Source: Lentisphaerota bacterium
GTDB lineage: Bacteria > Verrucomicrobiota > Kiritimatiellia > Kiritimatiellales > Pontiellaceae
Assembly (NCBI GenBank): GCA_012729265.1
Contig: JAAYDL010000339.1
Span: 1 to 34,321 of the forward strand
Direction of reading: 5' to 3'
DNA: 34,321 nt
Both the position numbers and the translations under genes were made by a program. Each line of letters begins with the position of its first letter. Positions within the stretch are counted from its first letter, which is position 1. This document shows, piece by piece, positions 677-30,959 of the stretch. Below the pieces are notes generated by a model that was not told the origin of the DNA, did not search any database, and saw only the letters and a program-made list of their open reading frames with translations.

Positions 677-2443
677 TTGGAAGGCCATCTCCGCATTAAC
701 ACGAAAAAATCCAGTCTGATGCATTATTTTGTTCCGCATCGCTTTGCGATTGCGGCCACGGCGCTTTGCGGTCTGCTGACGGTATGGAGCAGTCTGACGC
801 TGCCCTACATCATGCGGCTCGTGATTGAAGATCTAGAAAACGAGACGCTTACCCCCGAACGGCTCTGGCGGCGTATCGGCCTCTTCATCGCAGTGGGCAC
901 TGTGGCGATTATCTTTTCACGGCTGATCCGAAAAATCCCGTTGAAGCTTTCGCACATGATTGAATATGAGCTGCGCAACGATCTTTTTGAACATCTGACG
1001 CGGCTCGACCAATCGTTTTACCGCCGCGAACGCACCGGCGATCTGATGACCAAACTCTCGTCGGACATTAATATTATCCGCGATGCCATCGGCCAAGGTC
1101 TGCTTCAGGGCTCGCGGACACTGATTGCGCTGATCTCCGCTGCAGTGGTTATGCTGATGACGGATCGGCAGCTCACCGAAATTATATTTTCTATTTTTGC
1201 ACCGATGTCGCTCATCTTTTTTCTGGTGCTTCGGTTTCTGCGTCGTCATCAGTTGGCCCTTCAGGAGCATGTTTCCGAGGTTTCGAACTATTGTCATGAG
1301 ACCTTTTCGGGCATCCGCTGCCTGAAAGGGTTTGCCCTCGAACGCCGGCGTAACAGCGACTTTGAAGCGCTCAACAGCGAGCTCATTCGTAAGACCATGC
1401 GGATGCAGCGCTCGCGTCAGCTCCTCTGGCCGTTTGTGGACTTTTGCTTCAGTGTCGGCACCATCCTCACCTTCATTGTCGGAGGAAAGCGGATTATTGA
1501 AGGAACGTTGACTATCGGAACACTGATGCAGTTTATCCAATATCTTGCCTTTCTCCGCTGGCCGCTACTGGCGCTGAGCTTTGTCACAAGCATGGTCCAA
1601 CGCGGAAAAGTCAGCTGGATCCGTGTGAAAGATATTCTCGACACTCAACCGGAAATTGCCGAACCGAACGCCGAGGCCCTCCCCTCCGAAAAACCGAAAG
1701 CCTCCATCCGCTTCCGCAATGTTGATGTGGAAATCGGCGGACAACGGTTGCTTAAGGAGATTAATCTGGATATCCCGATGGGCACCACGCTGGGGATTAC
1801 CGGACCTACCGGCAGCGGAAAGACGCTGATGACCTCGCTGGTCGCCCGCCTGCTGGATCCCACTCGGGGCGAAGTTTTGCTCGACGGAAAGGATCTTCGC
1901 ACGCTTCCGCTCCGTGCGCTGCGCGGCATGATCGGCTATGCTGCGCAGGAACCTGTTCTCTTTTCCAGAACGCTGGAGCACAATATTGGATTCGGCATCG
2001 ACGATCCCGATATGGGCACTATCGGATGGGCCGCCGACATTGCTCACCTGCACGGCGACATTGAAACCTTCCCCGACCGCTACCAAACCATTCTCGGCGA
2101 GCGCGGTGTAACGCTCTCCGGCGGCCAGCGCCAGCGCACCTCGATCAGCCGAGCCATTGCCCGACGTCCGGACATTCTGATTCTCGACGACGTGCTCTCC
2201 GCCGTCGATACGCAGACCGAGGCCGCCATTATGAAAAAACTCCAGCCCGTTATGGCCGAGCGCACCACCCTTTTTGTCAGCCATCGCGTTTCCACGCTCC
2301 GCTATTCCGACGAAATCGTTGTGATTGAAAACGGACGAATTACGCAGCACGGCACCCATGAGGAGCTCATTCAGGTGCCCGGCTACTATGCCGAACTCAA
2401 CACCATGCAGCAATTGCAGGAAAAACTGGAGGCGGACGAATGA
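677..2443 (+). CDS. ABC exporter half-transporter, degenerate-site subunit
   Basis: A 588-residue type IV ABC exporter: an N-terminal six-helix membrane domain (about residues 20-310), then a nucleotide-binding domain. The NBD has Walker A (G-P-T-G-S-G-K-T, near residue 376), a canonical LSGGQ signature (near 480), a Walker B ending L-D504-D505 and an H-loop (V-S-H-R). The residue after the Walker B aspartate is D505, where active ATPases have a catalytic glutamate, so this subunit's own ATP site is expected to be poorly hydrolytic. Its stop overlaps the start of the next half-transporter (ATGA, 2440-2443), which carries the complementary defect. The pair is therefore read as a heterodimeric exporter of the BmrCD/TM287-288 type; the substrate cannot be told. 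The start is uncertain: TTG 677 gives the full frame, ATG 719 is the first ATG, and neither has a strong Shine-Dalgarno. Confidence 0.92.
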   Translation: MEGHLRINTKKSSLMHYFVPHRFAIAATALCGLLTVWSSLTLPYIMRLVIEDLENETLTPERLWRRIGLFIAVGTVAIIFSRLIRKIPLKLSHMIEYELRNDLFEHLTRLDQSFYRRERTGDLMTKLSSDINIIRDAIGQGLLQGSRTLIALISAAVVMLMTDRQLTEIIFSIFAPMSLIFFLVLRFLRRHQLALQEHVSEVSNYCHETFSGIRCLKGFALERRRNSDFEALNSELIRKTMRMQRSRQLLWPFVDFCFSVGTILTFIVGGKRIIEGTLTIGTLMQFIQYLAFLRWPLLALSFVTSMVQRGKVSWIRVKDILDTQPEIAEPNAEALPSEKPKASIRFRNVDVEIGGQRLLKEINLDIPMGTTLGITGPTGSGKTLMTSLVARLLDPTRGEVLLDGKDLRTLPLRALRGMIGYAAQEPVLFSRTLEHNIGFGIDDPDMGTIGWAADIAHLHGDIETFPDRYQTILGERGVTLSGGQRQRTSISRAIARRPDILILDDVLSAVDTQTEAAIMKKLQPVMAERTTLFVSHRVSTLRYSDEIVVIENGRITQHGTHEELIQVPGYYAELNTMQQLQEKLEADE

Positions 2444-4200
2444 AGATAGCCAAACGTCTCCTCGCATACGCCCTGCCCCACTGGCGCGGCCTCCTGTTTT
2501 CGCTCGCGCTGATTCTCAGCATGACCCTGCTCGTCAACGGTCTTCCGCTGATTCTTCAGCGCATGACCGATGACTGTCTGGTCGAAGGGACCGTATCGGC
2601 GGCAGAGCGAATCCGTAAGCTCTCCTTCCTCGGCCTCATTTATCTGAGCTTCGCTGCTCTGGGTCACCTTATCCGCTACATTCAATCGCTCCTCACCGCA
2701 TGGATTGGACAGAAAATCATTTATGATCTGCGGCTCGACATCTTCCGAAAAGTCCTGCGTCTGCATCAGGGCTTCTTCGACAAAACCGCCGTGGGCACTC
2801 TGATGTCGCGCGCGACCTCCGACATTGAGCGGCTCCAGCATTTTGTTACCGAAGCGGTTGTCGGTTCCATCGCCGACCTCGCGATGCTCTTTGGTATTAT
2901 GGGCTACATGATTTACATGAGCCCACTCCTCTCCATCTCCATCTTTGCTACATTGCCGATTCTCTTTACCGCCATGGTCTACATCAACGCGCGCCTGCGC
3001 AACGCCAACCGCGACATCCGCGACCGCCAATCGCGCATTAACGCCCTTGTACAGGAAGACTTGACCGGCATGACCACCATCCAGCTCTTTAACCGCGAGG
3101 CGCAGGCACAGGAAGAATTTGTTCAGCGCAACCAAGACCTACGCTCGGCCTATTTTGACGAAGTCCGCTGGTTCAGCCTCTATTTCCCCACCGTCGAAAT
3201 CGGTCAAACCCTCTCCATCCTCATCACCCTCGCCGTCGGCGGCTTTGCCATTCTGAATGGTTCCACCTCCATCACGCTCGGCACATTCATCGCCTTCCTT
3301 GCTTACGTGCAGAGCTTTTTCCATCCGCTCGGCTCCCTTTCCGATAAGGCGGGCTCCTTCCAAGTCGCTCTCGCCTCCACTGAGCGCGTCTTTGCGCTGC
3401 TCGACACCGAAGAAAAAATTCCCGAACCGGAATCCCCGGTATCGCCCGAACGGATCGCCGGCACCATCGCTTTTAACAATGTCTGGTTTGCCTACAACGA
3501 CGAAAACTGGGTGATCAAAGATCTCTCCTTCTCCGTCGAACCCGGCCAAGTTCTCGCCGTCGTCGGTGCCACCGGTGCAGGAAAAAGCACCATTATTAAT
3601 CTCATCGGCCGCTTCTACGACATCCAGCGCGGCTCCATCACCATCGACGGCGTCGACATCCGCCAATTCGCTAAAAACGAACTCCGCTCCCGCCTCGGCT
3701 ATGTCTTTCAGGATCCCTTCATCTTTACCGCGTCCATTGCCGACAATATTGGACTCAACACGCCCGGCGTTTCACGCGATGATATTATTTGCGCCGCCCG
3801 CACGGTTAACGCCCACGGCTTTATTGAAGCCACCCCAAACGGTTACGACACGATCCTCAACGAACGCGGTGCCGGCCTTTCGCTCGGACAAAAACAGCTC
3901 CTCGTCATGGCGCGGGCACTGGCACAGAACCCTGAACTGCTTTTTGTTCTCGACGAAGCCACCGCCAGTGTCGACACCGCCACCGAAATGCTCATCCAGG
4001 ATGCGCTCGGCAAACTCATGACCAACCGGACCAGTATTGTGATTGCGCACCGGCTCTCCACCATCCGCAACGCCGACCGCATCCTCGTCATGCGCCACGG
4101 CCAACTCGTTGAACAAGGTACACACAACGAACTCATGGCGAACGACGGCTACTACCACCAGCTCTACGAACTCCTGCTCCACAGCCCGGAGTGCGATTGA
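2440..4200 (+). CDS. ABC exporter half-transporter, catalytic-site subunit
   Basis: A 586-residue partner of the preceding gene, with the same layout of six-helix membrane domain then NBD. Walker A is G-A-T-G-A-G-K-S, Walker B ends L-D505-E506 with the catalytic glutamate present, and the H-loop is I-A-H-R. The signature motif is L-S-L-G-Q (480-484), with leucine replacing the first glycine of LSGGQ. In heterodimeric exporters the degenerate site is built from one subunit's Walker motifs and the other's signature. Here the Walker B D505 of the first protein and the LSLGQ of this one would meet in the same site, leaving a fully canonical second site. The 4-nt overlap of start and upstream stop implies translational coupling. 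It acts in the inner membrane; the cargo could be a lipid, drug or peptide. Confidence 0.93.
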   Translation: MKIAKRLLAYALPHWRGLLFSLALILSMTLLVNGLPLILQRMTDDCLVEGTVSAAERIRKLSFLGLIYLSFAALGHLIRYIQSLLTAWIGQKIIYDLRLDIFRKVLRLHQGFFDKTAVGTLMSRATSDIERLQHFVTEAVVGSIADLAMLFGIMGYMIYMSPLLSISIFATLPILFTAMVYINARLRNANRDIRDRQSRINALVQEDLTGMTTIQLFNREAQAQEEFVQRNQDLRSAYFDEVRWFSLYFPTVEIGQTLSILITLAVGGFAILNGSTSITLGTFIAFLAYVQSFFHPLGSLSDKAGSFQVALASTERVFALLDTEEKIPEPESPVSPERIAGTIAFNNVWFAYNDENWVIKDLSFSVEPGQVLAVVGATGAGKSTIINLIGRFYDIQRGSITIDGVDIRQFAKNELRSRLGYVFQDPFIFTASIADNIGLNTPGVSRDDIICAARTVNAHGFIEATPNGYDTILNERGAGLSLGQKQLLVMARALAQNPELLFVLDEATASVDTATEMLIQDALGKLMTNRTSIVIAHRLSTIRNADRILVMRHGQLVEQGTHNELMANDGYYHQLYELLLHSPECD

Positions 4201-4233
4201 ACGGATTCCACGCCTCCTGAGGAGCGAAGGGAC

Positions 4234-4257
4234 ATGTGATGTATTTGAACATCACAT
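4234..4257. terminator. hairpin between convergent genes, possible terminator
   Basis: A perfect 9-bp stem, ATGTGATGT (4234-4242) and ACATCACAT (4249-4257), with a 6-nt loop. It lies 34 bp after the ABC-transporter stop and 45 bp before the stop of the convergent gene. The flank is AT-rich (TAATAAAATATAT) but has no clean T-run, so termination is only likely, not certain. Confidence 0.5.
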
Positions 4258-4301
4258 TAATAAAATATATAGCCTCTGTGTCGCATTGATTTTATGCATT
4301 A

Positions 4302-5294
4302 TTACTGATGAAAACGAACGAGATGCCCCCCTCCGGATGCCCGGCGGATAGCCGAGAGTATACTTTTTTTTGTGACAACATAATCGCCATACCGATATTT
4401 AAGCTCCTTAAGTGCTTTCCCTTCAGCATTATCAATCAATGTCGAGATCTCATCCTCTGTTTTAGCAATGTTAGCTGCATCAGATGACAAATTATCGAGA
4501 ACAACCAAAGCAACGTACGCATAATACGTAATTGCCGCATCCGTAATTGTAAATAATGGATTCTGTTTATCAAATACCGTCTCAACATCATCCGAAAGAG
4601 GTATATACCCAAAGATATCAATTGGAGAAGGATCTGATCCAAAGTAGCTGGCGATTTCTTCAACTCTTATTATATTGTCTTTTGAAGAAAACTCAAACGA
4701 CTCTACAAAGGAACCACTGTACTCAGACAATATGACAGAAAGCCAATAATTAGGTTTCATCACATCTTTTTCAGTAAACTTTAATAGTGATTTAGCCTGC
4801 ATCGCCGATATTTTTCCATTTATTCTGCGAGATAACACCTCATCAACAATCACTCCGTATATTGAATGCTGGAGAACCAGATTTCCAATAGCGTTACCAC
4901 GACCTAGATACTGTTCTATGATGTAAAGATTCTGGATCGAAGACTCCAATTGCTCATATGAAGACTCCGGAAAACATTCACTCTGAACCTTTATTTCATT
5001 TAGCAATTTTTTCCCAAAAAATCTATTATATGTGTTTTCTTCTATTTGATTCTCAGCTAATACACATGCATTTGATGAATAAATGTACAGCACGTCTTCC
5101 GCAGGTAGTTTTTTAATTTCACGACATAGTTCCTCTATGCCTCCTGCATCTAGCGCCTCAACAAGATTCGTTACACTAGGCGAGGCCTGTGCATAAGTAT
5201 TTAATAGAAGTATGATAGTCATTAACGGAATACATCTAACAAATTTCGTTGCACCAACGCGGTTTTTTGTCTTACTTTTAATGTGTGTTTTCAT
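4302..5294 (-). CDS. secreted or membrane-anchored hypothetical protein
   Basis: A 330-residue protein with a basic N terminus and a hydrophobic segment (about residues 20-38, ending near A-Q-A-S) that looks like a signal peptide. The rest is a mostly helical, acidic domain with no motif I recognise. The start was placed at ATG 5294 because an AGAGGA Shine-Dalgarno precedes it; a longer frame to 5357 lacks this support. It is convergent with the ABC transporter genes and separated from the GH27 gene by about 240 bp. Its codons are distinctly A/T-rich compared with the GC-rich genes on both sides, which suggests recent acquisition. No function is assigned. Confidence 0.75.
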   Translation of the reverse strand: MKTHIKSKTKNRVGATKFVRCIPLMTIILLLNTYAQASPSVTNLVEALDAGGIEELCREIKKLPAEDVLYIYSSNACVLAENQIEENTYNRFFGKKLLNEIKVQSECFPESSYEQLESSIQNLYIIEQYLGRGNAIGNLVLQHSIYGVIVDEVLSRRINGKISAMQAKSLLKFTEKDVMKPNYWLSVILSEYSGSFVESFEFSSKDNIIRVEEIASYFGSDPSPIDIFGYIPLSDDVETVFDKQNPLFTITDAAITYYAYVALVVLDNLSSDAANIAKTEDEISTLIDNAEGKALKELKYRYGDYVVTKKSILSAIRRASGGGHLVRFHQ

Positions 5295-5532
5295 AATTAT
5301 TTCCTCTTGGCTAAGGCTGTATGTCTGGCAGAAACGACGGATTCGTATAATGTTCAAAAAAAATCACCTCAACAAGGAATATTCCACCTGCATTGCGCCC
5401 TATCTTTCTATCGTAGCCAATTTGACATATTGCAGCTGATCTCGCAGGTTCCGACGCTTCGGTCCCATCCGGTTCATAGAAACCCGGAAGATCCGGGGCT
5501 CATGTGGCTAAAGAAACAGATCCTCAAACCGC

Positions 5533-7329
5533 TCAACGCACGGGCGAAATACGATAGAGCCCGGCGGCGTGCAGCGACAGTTTCTGACCAAACGACTCTT
5601 CAAATTCGCCCAGATCTTTCTGCGCCCACAGATCGCGCACTTCCGCTTTTCCCGTAAACCCGAGGTCCTCAAAATCAACCGACACCAAGCTCTGTTCCGG
5701 CTTCAGATGCTTTTCCGGATTGATCAGCACCTTGAACTCCACACGCCCGGAACCGCCGCTGCCTTCGCTCATCATGCCGCGGGCAGTGAAGGTATCGTAG
5801 CCCTCGGGCAGCTCAAACTCGACGGCGGACACCGCGTGCGCGCCGATGCCTTCGAGCTGCTCTCCATTCAGGGTGATCGGACGATCATCCACCGTACGGT
5901 TTTTTCGCACCTCGCCCCAGCCTGAGCTGGCCACGCCCCAGTTCAGATCCGTCAGTTTAAGCGTTCCCGCCGGACCGGAGACCGTCGGTTCAATCCAAAC
6001 CGCGTGGTCATAGTAAGCGCCGTTCCCGCCGTCGCCTACAACGAGTACCAGCCGACGAGCGCCATGGATCGGAACCTTGATATCGATCACATCCGACTTC
6101 GGCTCTCCGCCGATTCTGCGGCTCGTATACGCCGGCTCCACGGAGAGATCGAACGGATCCTCGTTGCTCTGCGCATTAAAGAACGCCACATATTTATCGT
6201 CGCTGCCGGGCACATCGGCAACCCAAACAACCAAATCATCTTCACGCGAAAGCTGACGATTATTAGCGCTCTTCTGATTCACCGAAAGCACCTCGGGGTT
6301 TGTGAGGAGCTTGAGCGTAAAATCATCCATCTGTGTCATGTCGGCCCCGAGAATCAGCGGCGAGCGGGCGATACACCACAGGCTCATGCAGGTAATCTGT
6401 TCGTCTTGGGTGAACCGCGTTTCGCGGTCAAATTCAACAATCCCGAACGGCAGCATATCCGCATCCGGCCAAGAGCCTTCGGTGCGATACGGCGTCCACT
6501 TTTCGAGCCGCCCGAACATGCCGTAAAGCGGCAGCCAGCGATCCCAAAAGTCGTCGGAGATGCGCCACATATTGGCGTGGTTCATCACGTGTTCGCCCTT
6601 TTCAATCGGCGTATCGCCGGGCGAAAGACTCAGGATCATCGGACGTCCGCAGTTATCGATGGCCTTGCGGATGGCTTCGATTTCCGCCTGCTGAACCGCG
6701 TCATACGGACGGGCAATATCGTCGACCTTGACTAAATCGACACCCCACGAAGCGTACATTTTAAAGAGCGAATCGTAGTATTCCTGCGCGCCCGCCTTGC
6801 TCATATCCACTCCAAACATATCGGGATTCCACGAACAGGTGCTGCGCTGATTGGCAATATCCGCTGCGCGGACATCCGTTCCGAGAATCGGCGTATTTTC
6901 ACGCACGGCCTGTTTGGAAATCCCTCGCATCATGTGAATGCCGAACTTGAGTCCTTTGGAATGGACATAGTCCGCCAGCGGCTTGAAGCCTTTCCCGTCG
7001 GACGTAGAGGGAAACTTGGTCAGCGCCGGCGTAAGGCGGCTGTATTCATCCATCTGAAGCGTTGCACCGGGCGTGTAAGAATGCCCCTTCGAATTCGGCT
7101 CGTACCACTGAATATCCACCGTCAGATAGGTCCAGCCGTACGGCTTCAGGTATTCCGCCATCGCATCGGCCTGCGCCTTGGTTTGCGCCTCCGTCACCGT
7201 CGTGCCGAAACAGTCCCAGCTGTTCCAGCCCAGCGGAGGGGTCTCCGCCCACGACCGAAACTCCGACTCCGCAGAAACAGATCCAACCGCCAGTGCGACC
7301 GCCAACAAAACACCCGATTTTTTAATCAT
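5533..7329 (-). CDS. GH27 alpha-galactosidase with C-terminal NPCBM domain
   Basis: An exported enzyme of 598 residues. A signal peptide (I-K-K-S-G-V-L-L-A ... V-S-A) is followed by the GH27 barrel, recognisable from P-P-L-G-W-N-S-W-D near residue 33. The nucleophile is in V-K-V-D-D (D203), and the acid/base lies in W-R-I-S-D-D-F-W (D259 or D260). After a C-terminal beta-domain, residues from about 455 to 598 form an NPCBM-like domain (G-I-G-A-H-A motif). It should release terminal alpha-galactose (or a related sugar) from galactomannan, xyloglucan or oligosaccharides. The start was set to ATG 7329 because GGAGG lies 10 nt upstream; the ATG at 7338 is too close to that site. It is the last gene of the GH31-GH43-GH27 run, 45 bp after the GH43 stop. 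Confidence 0.93.
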   Translation of the reverse strand: MIKKSGVLLAVALAVGSVSAESEFRSWAETPPLGWNSWDCFGTTVTEAQTKAQADAMAEYLKPYGWTYLTVDIQWYEPNSKGHSYTPGATLQMDEYSRLTPALTKFPSTSDGKGFKPLADYVHSKGLKFGIHMMRGISKQAVRENTPILGTDVRAADIANQRSTCSWNPDMFGVDMSKAGAQEYYDSLFKMYASWGVDLVKVDDIARPYDAVQQAEIEAIRKAIDNCGRPMILSLSPGDTPIEKGEHVMNHANMWRISDDFWDRWLPLYGMFGRLEKWTPYRTEGSWPDADMLPFGIVEFDRETRFTQDEQITCMSLWCIARSPLILGADMTQMDDFTLKLLTNPEVLSVNQKSANNRQLSREDDLVVWVADVPGSDDKYVAFFNAQSNEDPFDLSVEPAYTSRRIGGEPKSDVIDIKVPIHGARRLVLVVGDGGNGAYYDHAVWIEPTVSGPAGTLKLTDLNWGVASSGWGEVRKNRTVDDRPITLNGEQLEGIGAHAVSAVEFELPEGYDTFTARGMMSEGSGGSGRVEFKVLINPEKHLKPEQSLVSVDFEDLGFTGKAEVRDLWAQKDLGEFEESFGQKLSLHAAGLYRISPVR

Positions 7330-7374
7330 AAACCCCATTCCTCCCCGCTTTTTAGTGGACGTTCCAGCCCACCA

Positions 7375-9726
7375 TTATTTTACAAACTTCCAGTCATATA
7401 GATTGAGAAGGTAACCCGAACCGCCCGTAAATTTAAAGTAAACATCGTGCTGACCTTTTACGCCGTTCAGCGTACAGGTTGTTACAACCCACGACTGCCA
7501 ACCGCCGGTATTCCCCACCGTACAGGTTCCAACCGGTTTTCCATCGACACGGTCGAGATAGATTTCAATCGTACCGCCGTCGGTTGCGGAAGCCACGCGC
7601 AGCTCCACCGTCTTTACGCCGGCACCAAAATCCAGTGCGTTAAACGAAACCCAGTCGCCGTTTTCAATATTGCAGACATTGTCTCCGCCTTCGGAACAGC
7701 CTTCGATGCTGATCCCGCGCTGCGCATTATATTCATCCGCCTTGTTCGTCACGAATGGATCACGGTATGAGGCCGAACAGATGATTGTCGCATTATTTAC
7801 GGTGCCCAGCTTTCCTTTATACTGCACACGAATCAACGTCTGCCCTTTATCCAGCGCAGTAACCACCCCATCCTTTACAGAGGCAATTTCCGAATTTTCT
7901 GAACGGCAAATCACTTGATCGCTTACATCTTCCGTATGACCGTCCATAAAGACCGCCTGCACCGAAAATTTCTCAGAGGATCCAACCACCAAATTCATTT
8001 TCGGAGCACTGACAACCAGTTCCTTTGCTGTAAACTCGCTCTTCAGATCCTTGGTCATAACGAGAACATCATCCGACTTGTCGGCAAATTCAGCAGTGAT
8101 CATTGTTTCGCCGGACACCTTGCTGGAGATCACAGCCTTGTCCACAGAAACAACGTCCGTATCTCTGACGGTAATTTTTGCGCGCTCCGTCACATCCCGG
8201 CTCGTACCGTCAGAATAAACCGCAGCCACGTTGAGCTTCGAGGTTCCCGCTTCTCCGGCCTGGATATCAATCTTATAGCGACTCACCGAAGCATCAATCG
8301 CGATCAGTTTGGCATCAGCGTTCTTCTTTGAAAACTCCCACCAGTCCAGCTTGCACAACTCAGCGGCGGCCTCGCCCTTAAAGACCAGATAGAGGTCGTG
8401 CTCTCCCTCTGCGCCGCTCACCGCAACGGTTTCCTTTTTCCACTCGCCGGCGGTGTAGCCGACCGAAAGCGTTCCGATTTGCGGACCGTCTACCGAATCG
8501 AGGTGCAGTTCAATGGTTCCTCCGCTGGAAGCTCCCGGTTTGGTTCCACAGGCCACCGAAGCGGAAAAAGCTGCGGCACCCGCGCCGAAATCTACACCCT
8601 GCACCTTGATGAATGCGCCGTCGCGAGAAGGATAAACATTCATTCCACCTTCGGAGCAGGGTTCCGATTCCATCCCTTCGCTCCATGCGATCGTCTCTCC
8701 TTCAACGCGGGCATAGGGATTGAGCGCTTCAACCTGATCAACCTGATCGGCCTCCTCCCACCAGGGCAGTTCCTGAATGGTGCCGTCCGGATTAAACTTC
8801 AGCTCTGCAACACAGACCGAACGACGTTCGTGATGGGTTTCGGTGATGGAAAAGTTTAGTTTAAAGTTAAACCCGAAAACGTAGGTTTTCCCCTTATAGT
8901 CAATGATTCCCGGATGATTTCCAGAGGAACGACTATCCGGACGCATAATGTAGCCTCCAAAATCCCAAGGCCCTTCTGGACTGTCACTCATGGCATAGCC
9001 TATACCTTCCGGGCAGCAAGTTGCCGCATAAGCCATGTAGTATCGATTATCACGCTTGTAGAGCCAAGGCCCTTCCTGAAAATGGTACGGATCCGGTTCA
9101 CCTTGCACCTTGGCGATCGAAGGATCCTTAATGACCTCTCCAGAATAGGAAATCATGTCTTCGTTGAGCTTCACATACCACATATTGGGATTGCCCCAAT
9201 AGAGATAGGCCTGCCCATCGTCATCAATGAAGGGAGAGGGATCGATAAATCCGTTTTCCGGCCCGACAAGCGGCTTGCCGATGGCATCTTTATACGGTCC
9301 CAGCGGACTGTCCGCCACCGCGACTCCAATCACGTTTTTGGGCCAACCCTGCACACTGACCGGCGCATAAAAATAAAACTTACCGTTGCGCTCGATCGCC
9401 TGCGGCGCCCAGGCATCATTCGATTGGACGGCCCAGGGAAATGTTTTAAGCGAGGCGATGGTACCGTGATCCGTCCAATTCACCATATCCGTTGAGGTAT
9501 AGCACTGCCAGTCCTTCATCAGGAAACGGCCCATACCGGGTCCGGCGTCATCTTCGTCGTGACTGGTATAAAGATACACCACGCCGTCGTGAACAAACGG
9601 AGCCGGGTCCGCCGTAAATTTGGTCTGCACAATCGGGTTGGACGCCATGCAAACCGAACCCTGAATAACCACTGCGCCCAATAAAGCGCTCAAACCACGC
9701 TTATACACTTTTTGATCCATCATCAT
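7375..9726 (-). CDS. GH43 glycosidase with CBM6, Ig-like repeats and CBM6
   Basis: A large exported multidomain enzyme of 783 residues. After a signal peptide the five-bladed GH43 domain has the expected triad: base D40 (T-A-D-P-A-P-F), modulator D162 (F-I-D-P-S-P-F) and acid E218 (F-Q-E-G-P-W). Then come a CBM6-like module (about 336-468), two Big_2-type Ig-like domains (about 475-645) and a second CBM6-like module (about 655-783). The two CBM6 modules share the S-E-G-G-x-N-V and E-[IL]-x-L-D-x-V-D-G segments. Activity is probably arabinofuranosidase or xylosidase on arabinoxylan-type chains. Three ATGs are in a row (9726, 9723, 9720); the GAGGGAG site fits the second or third best. It starts 15 bp after the GH31 stop, so the two are cotranscribed. 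Confidence 0.92.
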   Translation of the reverse strand: MMMDQKVYKRGLSALLGAVVIQGSVCMASNPIVQTKFTADPAPFVHDGVVYLYTSHDEDDAGPGMGRFLMKDWQCYTSTDMVNWTDHGTIASLKTFPWAVQSNDAWAPQAIERNGKFYFYAPVSVQGWPKNVIGVAVADSPLGPYKDAIGKPLVGPENGFIDPSPFIDDDGQAYLYWGNPNMWYVKLNEDMISYSGEVIKDPSIAKVQGEPDPYHFQEGPWLYKRDNRYYMAYAATCCPEGIGYAMSDSPEGPWDFGGYIMRPDSRSSGNHPGIIDYKGKTYVFGFNFKLNFSITETHHERRSVCVAELKFNPDGTIQELPWWEEADQVDQVEALNPYARVEGETIAWSEGMESEPCSEGGMNVYPSRDGAFIKVQGVDFGAGAAAFSASVACGTKPGASSGGTIELHLDSVDGPQIGTLSVGYTAGEWKKETVAVSGAEGEHDLYLVFKGEAAAELCKLDWWEFSKKNADAKLIAIDASVSRYKIDIQAGEAGTSKLNVAAVYSDGTSRDVTERAKITVRDTDVVSVDKAVISSKVSGETMITAEFADKSDDVLVMTKDLKSEFTAKELVVSAPKMNLVVGSSEKFSVQAVFMDGHTEDVSDQVICRSENSEIASVKDGVVTALDKGQTLIRVQYKGKLGTVNNATIICSASYRDPFVTNKADEYNAQRGISIEGCSEGGDNVCNIENGDWVSFNALDFGAGVKTVELRVASATDGGTIEIYLDRVDGKPVGTCTVGNTGGWQSWVVTTCTLNGVKGQHDVYFKFTGGSGYLLNLYDWKFVK

Positions 9727-23918: not shown

Positions 23919-23970
23919 AAAATGGTGCCCCGGAGAGGGTTCGAACCTCCGACCCCAGGATTAGGAATCC
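23919..23970. repeat. left attachment site (attL), partial tRNA-Arg copy
   Basis: Fifty-two bases identical to 30879-30930. It reproduces the tRNA-Arg gene from the 5' side of the anticodon stem to the CCA end plus 4 bp beyond; the 5' third of the tRNA is missing. It is the integration scar on the integrase side. Confidence 0.93.
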
Positions 23971-24092: not shown

Positions 24093-25322
24093 ATGAAAAC
24101 AAACTCGAAGGCAACGATCAAGAGCGACGATTACGAGGTGCATTACGGATTCAGAATCCGTTTGCAGAACACCAAAGCAGGAAAAAGATACCAAGTTGAC
24201 CTAGGCCGCAAATCTGGCCGACACGTTCGGAAATCCTTTCCGACATTGCAGGAGGCGCGAAACTGGGCGCATAGAATGAGTATTGAGGCCGACAATAAAG
24301 GTATTGCTGCCCTCAGATTCAGCGAAGAACAGAAAACCGATGCCGTTGAAGCCTTGGACACTCTGAAGGAGTTCGGGGTCAACCTACGCACCGCAGCCGC
24401 CTTTTTTGCCAAACATCACAAGAAGGTAGATCGAACCAACGGTTTCGGGGCACTTATTGAGCAATACCTCAAAGAACAGCAGGCCCGCACCAATAAAGGG
24501 GAATTACGTCCCAGCACCTTTAACGATATGCAGGGGCGGTTAAAACCGTTTCAAGCAAATCTGGGCCATATGGCAATCGATGCGATAGAAGCCCGGGACA
24601 TTGATCAACTCATGAATGAAATGAGCTTCACGGGGACGAATCGACAGAATTATAAGCGTTATTTGAGCGGGTTTTTTAACTGGGCCGTTCGGCAAAAGAA
24701 AACAGGCTCCAATCCTGTAACCGAAACCGAAACCGTCAAAGTCGAATCGCACACGCCGGAAATCTACACCCCGTCGCAGGTGAAAGCTCTTTTCAGTGCT
24801 TGCTACAAAGAGGAAAAACCACGCTCCGAACTGATTCCTTTTTTTGCTATAGCCTTCTTTGCGGGGGTACGGCCTGAGGAGATTATGCGCCTTGAATGGA
24901 AAGACATTGATCTAAGCCTTGGGGAAATCCATATCCGAGCCGGACATTCCAAAACACGACAGGCCCGCATTGTGCATCTGTCCGACAACCTGAAAAAATG
25001 GCTCCTGCAATGTCCACAAAAAGAAGGATCAATCTTTCCCTATTCCGAAACCAGTCTGAAACGGTGGCGCAAAGAGGTACACCAAAAGGCGGGGGTGGAA
25101 GTGATTCATGACGGTGCACGACACACCTTTGCCACCTTCTATTTAGCCCTTCACGGACTGGACGACACCTTGCAGGAATTAGGGCACACCGATCCTAAAA
25201 TGCTGTTCAAGCACTATCGCGGCCTTGCCAAAAACAGGAAAGCCCAAGCCCAGAAGTTCTTTGAAATAGCCCCCGCAACGGGAGAAAAGGTTCTGAAAAT
25301 TGAAAAGCAGGGGGCCGCATGA
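24093..25322 (+). CDS. int: tyrosine-recombinase integrase of the element
   Basis: A 409-residue site-specific recombinase. The N-terminal domain (about 10-60: Y-x-V-D-L-G-R ... F-x-T-L-x-E-A-R-N-W) should bind arm sites, and the SAM-like core-binding domain spans about 115-205. The catalytic domain has R260 (A-G-V-R-P-E-E), K287 (H-S-K-T-R), R343 (G-A-R-H-T-F-A-T), H365 (L-G-H-T-D) and the nucleophile Y375 (K-H-Y-R-G). The HxxR box is unusual: H-D-G-A-R, so the residue three before R343 is Asp and the His is one place further away. It starts 122 bp inside attL. Its stop overlaps the next start (ATGA). It should catalyse integration into and excision from the tRNA-Arg gene. Confidence 0.95.
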   Translation: MKTNSKATIKSDDYEVHYGFRIRLQNTKAGKRYQVDLGRKSGRHVRKSFPTLQEARNWAHRMSIEADNKGIAALRFSEEQKTDAVEALDTLKEFGVNLRTAAAFFAKHHKKVDRTNGFGALIEQYLKEQQARTNKGELRPSTFNDMQGRLKPFQANLGHMAIDAIEARDIDQLMNEMSFTGTNRQNYKRYLSGFFNWAVRQKKTGSNPVTETETVKVESHTPEIYTPSQVKALFSACYKEEKPRSELIPFFAIAFFAGVRPEEIMRLEWKDIDLSLGEIHIRAGHSKTRQARIVHLSDNLKKWLLQCPQKEGSIFPYSETSLKRWRKEVHQKAGVEVIHDGARHTFATFYLALHGLDDTLQELGHTDPKMLFKHYRGLAKNRKAQAQKFFEIAPATGEKVLKIEKQGAA

Positions 25323-26092
25323 GCGAACGAGTCAAACGCTGGGAAAGGAAGTGGGAAGAAGAACAGAAAGCCCGAAAAACCGAAGGTCGTAATGCTCAAG
25401 GCGGTATAAACTGGGAGGATATGCCGGACGTAGAGAACCGCATTAAGGGGTATTTGGGTGACTGTAACCTAACGCTGAGCGACGGGGCTATGTTTAAAGT
25501 TTGTTGTCAAATCGTAAACCTGAAGCCGCATATTGAGTTTTGTGCAGAAAAACGAAACAGTCCCGACCGTGAAAAATACGGGCCGAAGCAGTCCATTAAA
25601 AACCAACTCAAGGCCTTACAGCATGCACTAAATGTTCAGCCTATAACAGTGTGCGAAATTAATCGGGCGTTAAGAGAAGAGGCAGAGGAAAATCAAAGGG
25701 AATATGAGGAGCGATGTGCAACAGGAGAAGAGAACAATTTTTTAAAGCGGCCGTTGTCTAAAGAAGAAAAGCGGGCTTGGTCTGAAGCCACAAAACATTC
25801 GTTGCGCTACCTTGATAATGCAGTGAAACGCGCCATTAAGAATCTTGAATCCAAGCCTCTCGATGTTGCTAAACCAATTGACCGCTACTGGATTATTTCC
25901 GATCTGGTGTGTACTTATCGCGATACCATTCATGCGGAGAATCGACGCGCAAGCTACTCACCTCGCTATGAGGGAATCCTGTCCCAATTTATCAATACCG
26001 CGATGGTTCATATTCTGCCCGATGAAAAAGGAGTTTCGCCGAAGACCCTTAAAAGCGTGGTTGATAACTTGCGCAAAACAGACCGACTTTGA
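25319..26092 (+). CDS. element-encoded hypothetical protein
   Basis: A 257-residue soluble, charged, mostly helical protein, translationally coupled to the integrase by a 4-nt overlap. The N terminus is strongly basic and acidic (E-R-V-K-R-W-E-R-K-W-E-E-E-Q), and there is a central Glu-rich helix (R-E-E-A-E-E-N-Q-R-E-Y-E-E-R). I recognise no domain, signal peptide or membrane segment. Its position directly after int, before the regulatory gene, suggests a role in recombination, replication or regulation, but this is only inferred from order. Confidence 0.75.
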   Translation: MSERVKRWERKWEEEQKARKTEGRNAQGGINWEDMPDVENRIKGYLGDCNLTLSDGAMFKVCCQIVNLKPHIEFCAEKRNSPDREKYGPKQSIKNQLKALQHALNVQPITVCEINRALREEAEENQREYEERCATGEENNFLKRPLSKEEKRAWSEATKHSLRYLDNAVKRAIKNLESKPLDVAKPIDRYWIISDLVCTYRDTIHAENRRASYSPRYEGILSQFINTAMVHILPDEKGVSPKTLKSVVDNLRKTDRL

Positions 26093-26215: not shown

Positions 26216-26425
26216 ATGAATCACAAAAAGAAGAACCTCACCCCCCGCCGCGCTCTTAAAATCGGACTCGCCGCCGAATATGTGGGTCTATCAAGACGCG
26301 GACTTTTAGACCTAGCCTATCAAGGCCGGATTCCGTATTGCAAAGTTGGTACGCGCACCACGTTGTTTGACATTGCCGACCTCGATGCTTTCCTTGATTC
26401 CTGCAAGGTGGGAGGTGATGCGTAA
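26216..26425 (+). CDS. AlpA/excisionase-like HTH protein
   Basis: A 69-residue MerR-like winged helix-turn-helix protein. L-A-A-E-Y-V-G-L-S-R-R-G-L-L-D-L-A-Y-Q-G (18-37) forms the HTH, and R-I-P-Y-C-K-V-G-T-R-T-T-L-F-D-I-A-D-L-D-A-F-L is the wing and following helix, the pattern of HTH_17 excisionases and AlpA regulators. ATG 26216 was chosen over ATG 26201 because the GGAG ribosome binding site lies at 26203-26206, inside the longer frame. In satellites such proteins act as Xis or as activators of the early genes. It overlaps the next gene by one base (TAATG). Confidence 0.88.
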   Translation: MNHKKKNLTPRRALKIGLAAEYVGLSRRGLLDLAYQGRIPYCKVGTRTTLFDIADLDAFLDSCKVGGDA

Positions 26426-26688
26426 TGGATACGTTTGCCGCCCTGAAGAAAAAATACGGAGTTGCCCCACGGGATCCGCTTCAACTTCCCTCCCTCATTG
26501 CCCCTTGCGATCAATGCGAACGCGATACGCCGACAAAGATTTTATTCATGAAGGCAGGGCTAGGCAATGCCTGTTCCGTTTGTGGCCGCTTGCGCCGGGG
26601 TAAGCCGTATCTCTCGAAGGCAGATTTTGAAAACCAAATGCGCAACAGCGTAAAGGGTGGAAAGCATGAGCAAGACCGATTGGCTTAG
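26425..26688 (+). CDS. small zinc-finger protein of the element
   Basis: An 87-residue protein with two C-x-x-C knuckles (C28-D-Q-C31 and C50-S-V-C53) separated by 18 residues, likely one zinc-binding site, followed by a basic segment (R-L-R-R-G-K). GGAGGTGA lies just before the ATG. It overlaps the primase start by about 23 bases, so the two are translationally coupled. A DNA-binding or primase-accessory role is plausible; phage primases often carry zinc fingers, here apparently as a separate polypeptide. No family recognised. Confidence 0.8.
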   Translation: MDTFAALKKKYGVAPRDPLQLPSLIAPCDQCERDTPTKILFMKAGLGNACSVCGRLRRGKPYLSKADFENQMRNSVKGGKHEQDRLA

Positions 26689-27909: not shown

Positions 27910-28362
27910 ATGAAAATTATTATCGACACACGCGAAAGAACAGAACTTGCATTCACCCACTTTGAGGCCGAACGCGGAACCTTGCAAAGCGGAGATTACA
28001 GCATTACCGGATTAACGCACAGATTCGCCATAGAACGCAAAAGCATCGACGACCTAACCCAGAGCATCACCACAGGCCGCGAACGCTTTGAGCGCGAATT
28101 GCACCGCCTTAGAGGCTTTGACTTTGCCCGCTTGCTGATCATTGGAACCGAAACAGAAATCAGACAGCACCGCTACCGAAGCAGAGTTCCACCCAAAAGC
28201 GTACTTCATAGCCTCTATGCTTTCGAGGTACGCTATCAAATCCCCGTGGTCTGGGCTGGAACAGAAGCCAATGCCGCCGCCCTGATTGAACGCTGGGCGT
28301 TCTGGTATGCAAGAGAAGTTAAAAACGCCGCTGAAGGCATGAACAAGGAGATGACAATATGA
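27910..28362 (+). CDS. ERCC4 (XPF)-type nuclease
   Basis: A 150-residue single-domain nuclease. It begins I-I-I-D6-T-R-E9, then S-G-D29-Y and I-E42-R-K-S-I-D47-D-L, which is the ERCC4 catalytic pattern (GD(x)n ERK-xxx-D). R-E-R-F-E-R-E-L-x-R-L and the terminal helix Y-x-I-P-V-V-W-A-G-T complete the fold. Such proteins cut branched or flap DNA and occur in many phages. ATG 27910 aligns with the domain start; the longer frame to 27868 reads into the primase. It overlaps the next gene by ATGA. A role in processing replication or recombination intermediates is likely. Confidence 0.88.
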   Translation: MKIIIDTRERTELAFTHFEAERGTLQSGDYSITGLTHRFAIERKSIDDLTQSITTGRERFERELHRLRGFDFARLLIIGTETEIRQHRYRSRVPPKSVLHSLYAFEVRYQIPVVWAGTEANAAALIERWAFWYAREVKNAAEGMNKEMTI

Positions 28363-28625
28363 AAATGACACCAAAACAAAACCGCTTCTGCATCGAATTC
28401 GGCAAAGATTTTGATCCGTTAGAAGCTGCAATTCGGGCCGGGTATTCTCCCGGAACAGTCTCACGAACGGTGCTTGCACTGTCAACGAATCAGAAAGTGC
28501 TCGATAAAGTCCGAGAACTATACTACACGCGGCATATCGACATTCAGACGACCGAAGGCACACTTGCGCAGGTGAGCGTGTTTACAGAGCGTTTTGAGCG
28601 GAAAGAGGAGGCAGGGATAAAATGA
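28359..28625 (+). CDS. terminase small subunit-like protein, short divergent copy
   Basis: An 88-residue protein starting M-T-P-K-Q-N-R-F-C-I-E-F, then L-E-A-A-I-R-A-G-Y-S-P-G-T-V, the N-terminal HTH of Terminase_2-type (XtmA) small subunits. It is shorter than the following paralog and lacks most of its C-terminal oligomerisation region. AAGGAG lies 8 nt before the ATG. Both ends overlap neighbours by ATGA, indicating tight coupling. It could be a second TerS, a regulator built from the TerS HTH, or a partner that alters packaging specificity. Confidence 0.8.
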   Translation: MKMTPKQNRFCIEFGKDFDPLEAAIRAGYSPGTVSRTVLALSTNQKVLDKVRELYYTRHIDIQTTEGTLAQVSVFTERFERKEEAGIK

Positions 28626-29044
28626 CACCGAAACAAAGCAGATTCTGCGAAGAATACATTATCGACCTCAACGCCACACAAGCCGCAATCCGGGCGGGCT
28701 ACAGCCAAAAGGCGGCACGGGCAATTGCTGCCGAAAACCTGTCAAAACCTGACATTCAAAAAAAAGTTGAGGAGTTAAAGGCCGCCGCTACGGAAAAAGC
28801 AGAAGTCAGCGTTCAAGATGTCCTTTGCGGGATTCGTTCCATTGCCGAAGATGAGGGCGCAACCAACCGCGATAAGCTGAAGGCTTGGGAATTGTTGGGC
28901 CGCTATAATGGCATGTTTACCGATCGAATTGAGTCCCGTGTTCAGCAGGTTGTTGAGGAAAAAGGAACGCCGGAAGAGTACGCGCGGAAGGTTGCCGAGG
29001 TCACAAAAGAGATTTTAGAAAAGTATCGCGACAGACAATACTAA
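28622..29044 (+). CDS. terS: terminase small subunit (Terminase_2/XtmA-like)
   Basis: A 140-residue protein. T-P-K-Q-S-R-F-C-E-E-Y-I-I-D-L-N-A-T-Q-A is followed by A-I-R-A-G-Y-S and A-x-E-N-L-S-K-P-D-I-Q, the DNA-binding domain of phage small terminases; a helical oligomerisation region follows. AGGAGG precedes the ATG. No large terminase gene is in the element. A TerS without TerL is the hallmark of PICI satellites, where it redirects the helper phage's large subunit to satellite pac sites. Its stop overlaps the stop of the convergent membrane-protein gene (29041-29044). Confidence 0.92.
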   Translation: MTPKQSRFCEEYIIDLNATQAAIRAGYSQKAARAIAAENLSKPDIQKKVEELKAAATEKAEVSVQDVLCGIRSIAEDEGATNRDKLKAWELLGRYNGMFTDRIESRVQQVVEEKGTPEEYARKVAEVTKEILEKYRDRQY

Positions 29045-29475
29045 CCTTGTGCGCTGCTTTTATTTTTCAGGACGGCACTAAGGATGATTAATCCGCTTCC
29101 AACAATAAGAATAGTCCATCCCCATTGTAGGTGAACTGACTTCATTATATCTGTTGTCAATTCATGAAACATAGCCCAATCATCGGCTTGAGATTCAGCT
29201 TGAGAAATCGATTTTTTTAGAGCTATTTGATAATCTATTAACGTGTAAAGAATTATGGACAGGCTAAGTACTCCTGTTCCCAAGAGGATTTTATTAACTC
29301 CTTTAAGCGATAATATCAGCGAAGCTATGGCTAAAATCAAAATACAGATACCAGTAGCATTGCTTTTCTGCATATAAGTCATGCTTCCAATAATGGGGGC
29401 GCTGATTACAGGTGTAAAAACTCCTATTAGAAGAATAATTGCCCCAGATATTCCCATTGTTTGCTTTGTATTCAT
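29041..29475 (-). CDS. four-helix membrane protein, element cargo
   Basis: A 144-residue protein with four likely transmembrane helices (about 7-25, 40-58, 62-82, 118-136). A loop of about 35 mostly polar residues lies between helices three and four (S-Q-A-E-S-Q-A-D-D-W). The start was set at ATG 29475, which has AAAAAAGGAG at good spacing. It follows the zinc-ribbon gene by 29 bp on the same strand, and the two are AT-rich. I do not recognise the family. In this position (accessory end of a satellite) superinfection exclusion or phage interference is possible, but nothing in the sequence proves it. Confidence 0.75.
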   Translation of the reverse strand: MNTKQTMGISGAIILLIGVFTPVISAPIIGSMTYMQKSNATGICILILAIASLILSLKGVNKILLGTGVLSLSIILYTLIDYQIALKKSISQAESQADDWAMFHELTTDIMKSVHLQWGWTILIVGSGLIILSAVLKNKSSAQG

Positions 29476-29504
29476 GTTTCTCCTTTTTTGGATTGAGGTA
29501 GATC

Positions 29505-30404
29505 TCACTGCTCAATAATTTCCAGCACATTCCCGTCAAGATCACACTTCGCCGTAATTGTATTTGGTATAATTCCGCCAAAGGCGTTTGATCCTCGATA
29601 TGTTGTAAAGACAAGCAGGTGTTCACCCAGATCTGAAAAGGTGGTTTTTACGTGTTTATATGATTCCGGATTGTACATCGCGTTCTTGATGACCTTTGTG
29701 AGTTCGATATGCGATCCATCCCAAGCACTGAATCCTTTTTCAATTCTTTCCATCCGCTCGGCGGCCAGCTGTTCAGCCTCCACTGCCTTACGCTGTTCTT
29801 CTTCAGCTAGGCGCCTTGCTTCAAGCTTTCGTTGTTCTTCCAGTTCCTTTGCCGCAATAACGGCCTTTTCTTCACTGATTTTCTGAAGCGCCCGATAAGT
29901 TGCATATACCGTTGCAAAGCACTCTGCTCCTGACTCAGGAGAGAGCTCAGATTCTGTAAATCCAAATGTAAAACCTTCTCGTATTAGCTGAATTTCATCC
30001 TCTGTTATTTGGGAGATGGTTCCTTGTTGGGTGGAGCCATTGTTGAGCGTAAGTGTAATTTCTGATCCCACTTCTGGAGCTTTAAAATCAGGGAGATAGA
30101 GAGCGATTAATTCAGCCTCTCTGGCTTCCCAGTCCGGTGTGATTGGTTCTGCTGGTGCTGTTGGAACAGGGGAGATCTTCTGCTTTTTTTGAGAGGAAGG
30201 GGCCGTCTGTTCCGTTGAGGTGGTATCTGTTCCGTCTGATTCAGGTGCTGGTGCAACGATTGCGCCGATTACGATTACGAGAACCAAGAGGATAAAAACA
30301 CCGAGGCAACCCGATTTCTTTTTTACGGGTGCTCCGCAGTGAGGACATTTTTTTGCTCGTTTGCTTACCTTTCCCCCGCAGTCCTTGCATTTCTTCAGTG
30401 CCAT
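29505..30404 (-). CDS. zinc-ribbon membrane protein with coiled coil and W-D-G-S-H domain, element cargo
   Basis: A 299-residue protein with clear parts. An N-terminal zinc ribbon (C6-K-D-C9 ... C20-P-H-C23) is followed by one transmembrane helix (about 35-50), a Ser/Thr/Pro-rich linker, and a small beta-domain around E-I-T-L-T-L-N-N-G-S-T-Q-Q-G-T-I that resembles an SH3/LSm fold. Then come a Glu/Arg/Ala-rich coiled coil (about 180-225) and a C-terminal domain with A-W-D-G-S-H, N-P-E-S-Y-K-H-V and N-A-F-G-G. I have seen the last domain in phage- and island-borne proteins of unknown role. ATG 30404 follows a perfect AGGAGG. It is cotranscribed with the four-helix protein. Confidence 0.8.
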   Translation of the reverse strand: MALKKCKDCGGKVSKRAKKCPHCGAPVKKKSGCLGVFILLVLVIVIGAIVAPAPESDGTDTTSTEQTAPSSQKKQKISPVPTAPAEPITPDWEAREAELIALYLPDFKAPEVGSEITLTLNNGSTQQGTISQITEDEIQLIREGFTFGFTESELSPESGAECFATVYATYRALQKISEEKAVIAAKELEEQRKLEARRLAEEEQRKAVEAEQLAAERMERIEKGFSAWDGSHIELTKVIKNAMYNPESYKHVKTTFSDLGEHLLVFTTYRGSNAFGGIIPNTITAKCDLDGNVLEIIEQ

Positions 30405-30878: not shown

Positions 30879-30930
30879 AAAATGGTGCCCCGGAGAGGGT
30901 TCGAACCTCCGACCCCAGGATTAGGAATCC
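30879..30930. repeat. right attachment site (attR), inside tRNA-Arg
   Basis: Fifty-two bases identical to attL. It spans 4 bp beyond the CCA through the anticodon loop to the third base of the 5' anticodon stem. The sequences diverge at 30931/23971, so strand exchange occurred within this segment, as is common for tRNA-targeting integrases. Confidence 0.93.
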
Positions 30931-30959
30931 TGTGCTCTGTCCAGCTGAGCTACCGGGGC
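30883..30959 (-). tRNA. tRNA-Arg(CCT)
   Basis: A complete 77-nt cloverleaf with encoded CCA: 7-bp acceptor stem (GCCCCGG/CCGGGGC), a 4-bp D stem, anticodon stem CAGGA/TCCTG with loop TTCCTAA (anticodon CCT, reading AGG), a 5-nt variable loop, and T arm GGAGG-TTCGAAC-CCTCT. The element has kept the gene whole by supplying its own copy of the 3' part. Confidence 0.97.

Follow-up and report, generated by a model that had tools for sequence, protein, structure and literature searches.

A short TerS-like gene overlapping a full small-terminase gene in a probable phage satellite of a Lentisphaerota bacterium

The window, which is the whole 34,321-nucleotide stretch of DNA analysed here, contains two adjoining genes related to the small terminase, TerS. 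We refer to them as TerS88 and TerS140 after the lengths of their products (Table 1). The initial annotation described two adjacent genes of 88 and 140 residues joined by an ATGA overlap, with the motifs TPKQxRFC and AIRAGYS common to both products; coordinates, lengths and motifs all proved to be exact. For Terminase_2 (PF03592), the Pfam cut-off of 26.1 bits is exceeded by TerS88 with 35.7 bits and by TerS140 with 101.1 bits, and the match spans residues 3-59 of TerS88 and nearly the whole length of TerS140. Both also match phrog_51, the PHROG family for TerS (4.5e-10 for TerS88 and 3.9e-32 for TerS140). Their N-terminal domains are 45% identical over the first 53 residues, a likeness that is not due to chance, since BLASTP gives E=1e-11 in a single comparison.

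Table 1. Features of the element that holds the TerS gene pair, with positions in the window.
Feature	Position	Strand	Remarks
attL	23919..23970		52-bp exact repeat of 3' part of tRNA-Arg(CCT)
Tyrosine integrase, 409 aa	24093..25322	+	PF00589 2.7e-15; phrog_1 1.6e-47
257-aa ORF overlapping int by ATGA	25319..26092	+	placed like PICMI iolg
AlpA/excisionase-like HTH_17 protein, 74 aa	26201..26425	+	PF12728 1.3e-8; phrog_66
87-aa ORF overlapping primase gene	26425..26688	+	homologue beside primase in L115
Primase-like protein, 410 aa	26657..27889	+	phrog_2597 DNA primase 5.9e-12
ERCC4-type nuclease, phage type, 164 aa	27868..28362	+	PF02732 5.9e-15; phrog_3490 4.9e-22
TerS88, short TerS-like gene	28359..28625	+	88 aa; PF03592 E=1.6e-8
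TerS140, TerS of SPP1/SF6 G1P type	28622..29044	+	140 aa; PF03592 1.1e-28
155-aa convergent cargo protein, hydrophobic stretches	29041..29508	-	phrog_38854 4.8e-20, unknown function
Zinc-ribbon cargo protein, about 301 aa	29505..30410	-	phrog_3403 1.6e-20
attR	30879..30930		second 52-bp copy, overlapping intact tRNA-Arg(CCT) 30883-30959(-)

An ATGA overlap also joins the ERCC4 gene to the start of TerS88, and the coupled unit therefore consists of three genes, ERCC4-TerS88-TerS140, rather than two. Shine-Dalgarno-like sequences lie at normal spacing before TerS88 (AAGGAG, 28345-28350) and before TerS140 (GAGGAGG, 28605-28611). With such a sequence of its own, TerS140 is not strictly dependent on coupling. 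The last residues of TerS88, KEEAGIK (28602-28625), coincide with the Shine-Dalgarno-like sequence of TerS140, and the tail of TerS88 may for that reason be shaped by this site.

The pair belongs to an element of 6,960 bp, bounded by an exact 52-bp direct repeat in tRNA-Arg(CCT). Besides the genes already named, the element encodes a 74-aa HTH_17/excise protein, which exceeds the TIGR01764 cut-off and gives no match to Pfam Phage_AlpA, and a 257-aa ORF that matches no Pfam or PHROG family. The primase-like protein has a relative of 59-60% identity in another genome of the same genus (G019), and no relatives in searches of genome_contigs and viral_contigs; relatives of the ERCC4 nuclease are found on viral contigs. 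No virion, lysis or TerL gene was detected among the element genes with Pfam and PHROG. The pair had been described as lacking a large subunit, and for two TerL families this holds beyond the element: the 3.4-Mb assembly (94% complete) has no match to PF04466 or PF03237, and the rest of the genome has no second Terminase_2 locus. Because an integrase, an att site, an HTH_17/excise protein, a primase and TerS occur together without virion genes, the element is most likely an integrated PICI/PICMI-like phage satellite in the bacterial chromosome.

Parasitism of phages by satellites is largely a matter of re-aimed packaging machinery. Specific packaging is served in some SaPIs and PICIs by a TerS of their own (PMC6092414). 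The element resembles PICIs, both SaPIs and those of Gram-negative bacteria, in having an integrase, an AlpA/Xis-like regulator, a primase, a TerS homologue and a specific att site and in lacking virion genes. It differs in being small (7 kb) and in having two TerS-like genes. In the PICMI satellites of Vibrionaceae, an integrase gene is followed by iolg, which overlaps it by ATGA, and by AlpA and primase genes (PMC10803314). PICMI115 has six genes and helper-dependent packaging, and the word terminase is absent from the text that describes it (PMC10803314). The element here is of about the same size as PICMIs (6-7 kb) and has the same layout of integrase, ATGA-overlapping gene, AlpA and primase. 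PICMI primases, however, are of the DUF3987/DUF5906 type and integration is at fis, whereas the primase here matches neither Pfam family and the element lies in tRNA-Arg. Since primase family and integration site both differ, the layout is PICMI-like and the element is not a PICMI.

Elements with related integrases differ widely in content. The closest in layout is L115 in G019, where the order integrase, ORF, AlpA-like gene, primase recurs and the matched proteins are 52-60% identical (integrase 52%, excisionase 53%, primase 59%); G019 has no Terminase_2 gene. In a second genome (G029), L118 holds an element of 7.0 kb inserted in tRNA-Lys; its integrase is 60% identical, and none of the ORFs tested encodes TerS. 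A third element, also in tRNA-Lys (L347 of G036, 2409-7720), has an integrase of 63% identity and a TerS that belongs to another family (phrog_2538, 4.4e-11); it also carries an IetA/IetS defence pair (AAA ATPase and subtilase) and a replication-initiation protein. Terminase_2 genes are absent from the fetched related-integrase elements, some of which lie on short contigs. The cargo of L347 and the lack of Terminase_2 in the fetched relatives indicate that packaging and defence genes are exchangeable cargo in this integrase lineage, in which the pair is not conserved. An ORF that overlaps the integrase gene by 4 nt including the stop codon, like iolg of PICMIs, is found in the window (25319-26092), in L115:3356-4147 and in L118:11725-12297, and no likeness of sequence is detectable among these ORFs.

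Such variety among elements with related integrases, together with the absence of a known helper phage, would also suit a prophage in decay whose structural genes are gone and whose TerS genes are leftovers. We consider this very unlikely. The genes are compact, overlapping and intact between exact att repeats, part of their order is shared with L115 at the identities given above, and none of them matches a virion gene. Satellites that carry TerS are of a known kind; what is new is the second, short and divergent TerS-like gene alongside. Literature searches found no TerS-carrying satellites in this bacterial group, and the element points to their presence there. A further contig from Kiritimatiellae (L169:357-5261) carries an HTH_17 gene, a primase gene of D5 type and a TerS gene that no TerL gene follows, and adjoins tRNA-Arg and tRNA-Met. 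It is probably another small TerS-carrying satellite.

The longer protein of the pair has the parts of a full small terminase. TerS140 matches the SF6 small terminase (PDB 3zqp) at 4.4e-18, with both the DNA-binding and the oligomerisation regions aligned. In its AF2 model (mean pLDDT 90), four helices at the N-terminus are followed by two for oligomerisation (residues 64-76 and 82-95, the second stretch being aligned to 3zqp) and by one at the C-terminus, and Foldseek finds 3zqq with this model (5e-6). By its predicted DNA-binding and oligomerisation parts, TerS140 is thus classed as an SPP1/SF6-type TerS. It aligns with G1P of these phages over both parts, the difference being the helix predicted at its end. 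TerS140 is most likely the working TerS of the satellite, the recognition subunit for a helper TerL.

The models of TerS88 and TerS140 share an N-terminal HTH DNA-binding domain, which matches 2cmp and 4zc3 with TMt 0.82-0.86. In TerS88 there is little else. Its AF2 model has a four-helix DNA-binding fold with block-mean pLDDT of 94-98 over residues 1-50, from an alignment that included TerS relatives and so favours the TerS DNA-binding fold. The last helix runs into a predicted disordered tail, with pLDDT <50 for residues 66-85. Among solved structures, 2cmp and 4zc3, both DNA-binding domains of SF6, match TerS88 best (TMt 0.82, with E only 0.05-0.07). The suggestion that the short protein is essentially an isolated TerS DNA-binding domain is thus borne out by the model and by the match to 2cmp. 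Central oligomerisation helices are absent from the model, and we therefore call TerS88 TerS-like rather than TerS. It resembles the isolated DNA-binding domain of SPP1/SF6 G1P and differs from G1P in having no oligomerisation domain. All the residues that are invariant in the family alignment are kept (F10, D17, A24, R26, A27, G28 and Y29); other family-conserved residues are changed, in the NATQ and ENLSKPDI stretches. In codon use, TerS88 fits its own reading frame better than any of the other five, by a smaller margin than the neighbouring genes do.

The simplest origin for such a pair, a recent tandem duplication of TerS140 to give TerS88, was rejected by phmmer scores, by the tree and by comparison of the nucleotide sequences. 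With TerS88 as query, phmmer gives 30.0 bits to TerS140 as against 38.6 to the TerS of L169 and 35.7-38.2 to several others. TerS88 and TerS140 are each closer to other TerS proteins than to each other. When 124 N-terminal domains are placed in a tree, the branch of TerS88 is among the longest (4.13, 8 times the median of 0.51). None of the bootstrap trees (0%) pairs TerS88 with TerS140, in an analysis of 60 columns that resolves few of the forks. The starts of the two genes are 81% identical over 37 nt, but over the first 31 codons only 55 of 93 nt agree. The tail of TerS88 contains VFTER, which resembles a family motif found after the oligomerisation helices. This would suggest that TerS88 arose by internal deletion, with loss of the oligomerisation part and retention of VFTER; the likeness is marginal, being equalled by 236 of 5000 shuffles.

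As a check, the initial annotation had proposed to look for the pair in related islands; its conservation there is not supported: the short gene is present in no other of the 43 genomes of the order. No orthologue of TerS88 was found in these genomes or among 273 Terminase_2-type loci, and a search of viral_contigs with TerS88 alone gave no relatives. The 273 loci come from viral contigs, bacterial genomes, phages and the window. Two such ORFs occur in four of them and overlapping tandem TerS genes in the window only (1 of 273), in a set that was picked by similarity to the query proteins and is not a census. At the level of the phylum, PF03592 matches are present in 28 of 388 genomes, with no adjacent pair besides that of the window. 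Two phage contigs (L067:7974-10260 and L285:3130-5586) have a truncated TerS of 99 and 96 aa, respectively, about 1 kb upstream of a TerS of 329-330 aa, and in L030 a partial TerS lies 0.7 kb upstream of a full one. The full TerS of L067 and L285 has a different N-terminal extension, as if one packaging module had taken the place of another. No relevant publication on tandem or duplicated TerS was found in a literature search. The pair is real and unusual; it is a single occurrence, and a lead rather than a system.

These comparisons bear on the main and serious rival to a function for TerS88 as regulator or competitor, that it is the relic of an older TerS that was displaced by TerS140, has lost its oligomerisation part and is drifting. 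Its frame would then have stayed open by chance or as carrier of the ribosome-binding site of TerS140. TerS88 is seen nowhere else in the searches, its branch is long, the truncated genes of L067 and L285 offer parallels, and the VFTER likeness, weak as it is against shuffles, would be a remnant of what was lost. The long branch and the loss of family-conserved residues also fit relaxed constraint, and the coding score is below that of the neighbours. Against a relic stand the intact frame, a Shine-Dalgarno-like sequence of its own and ATGA overlaps at both ends, as well as the codon use. Seven family-invariant residues are also kept, as is a confidently predicted DNA-binding fold, from an alignment that contained TerS relatives. 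We regard the relic as a real possibility, short of probable. The initial annotation had named a degraded duplicate absent from relatives as evidence against its own proposal. Absence is indeed what is seen in the 43 genomes, the 388 genomes and the fetched elements; degradation and duplication are not, since TerS88 is intact, coding-like, coupled on both sides and no recent duplicate.

If TerS88 is functional, it may have any of the roles put forward in the initial annotation, as dominant modulator, as transcription regulator or as source of packaging specificity for a second helper, among which sequence does not discriminate. In phage FP_Lugh, the gene order is resolvase, small gene, TerS, TerL, and the small gene matches the transcription-regulator family phrog_36. 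Among the ORFs that lie just upstream of TerS at 188 loci, the largest family is this sigma-like regulator, with 16 members, four of them tested. A regulator or site competitor is plausible for TerS88 because a phrog_36 regulator is the commonest occupant of the slot upstream of TerS, which is a purely positional argument. We consider the chances evenly balanced that the element is a satellite with a working TerS140 and with TerS88 as a regulator or DNA-site competitor made of the DNA-binding domain only.

A life cycle on these lines would begin with infection by a helper, upon which the integrase and the AlpA-like protein would excise the satellite. The primase would replicate it, and the ERCC4 nuclease would process branched products of replication. 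A ring of TerS140 would then bind the satellite DNA at a putative pac-like site and pass it to the helper TerL, so that helper capsids would be filled with satellite DNA. TerS88 would also bind DNA, but not as a ring, and would most likely act as a regulator of the late/packaging operon or as a competitor at a TerS or pac site. If so, the choice of DNA for packaging would be tuned in a new way, by a free DNA-binding domain of TerS encoded next to a complete TerS. A more general proposal is that satellites split TerS function, the short protein being made with a full TerS in order either to switch between transcription and packaging or to act as a competitor, shielding the satellite site or blocking the helper pac. 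We hold this to be doubtful.

There is a precedent for partner proteins in packaging recognition. Rpp of E. coli PICIs forms a heterocomplex with the helper TerS that binds PICI DNA and no longer recognises phage DNA (PMC6739421). By this precedent, a small partner protein in TerS-based recognition by a satellite is possible, and TerS88 may be likened to Rpp as a satellite protein beside a TerS. Rpp differs in that it binds the helper TerS, whereas TerS88 is itself a homologue of the TerS DNA-binding domain. TerS88 might also enter rings of TerS140 or of the helper TerS as a mixed subunit, changing pac specificity or blocking helper packaging. The overlap of the genes, by which both proteins are probably made together, and the Rpp heterocomplex (PMC6739421) are in keeping with such rings; they are nevertheless unlikely, because TerS88 has neither of the two oligomerisation helices of the TerS140 model.

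A likeness of another kind to the start of TerS is seen in viral contigs. In L042 (L042:7493-7990) and four similar contigs, the ORF just upstream of TerS encodes an HNH endonuclease with the N-terminus MAKLTDKQELF, which imitates that of TerS. The start of this endonuclease was perhaps captured from the N-terminus of TerS.
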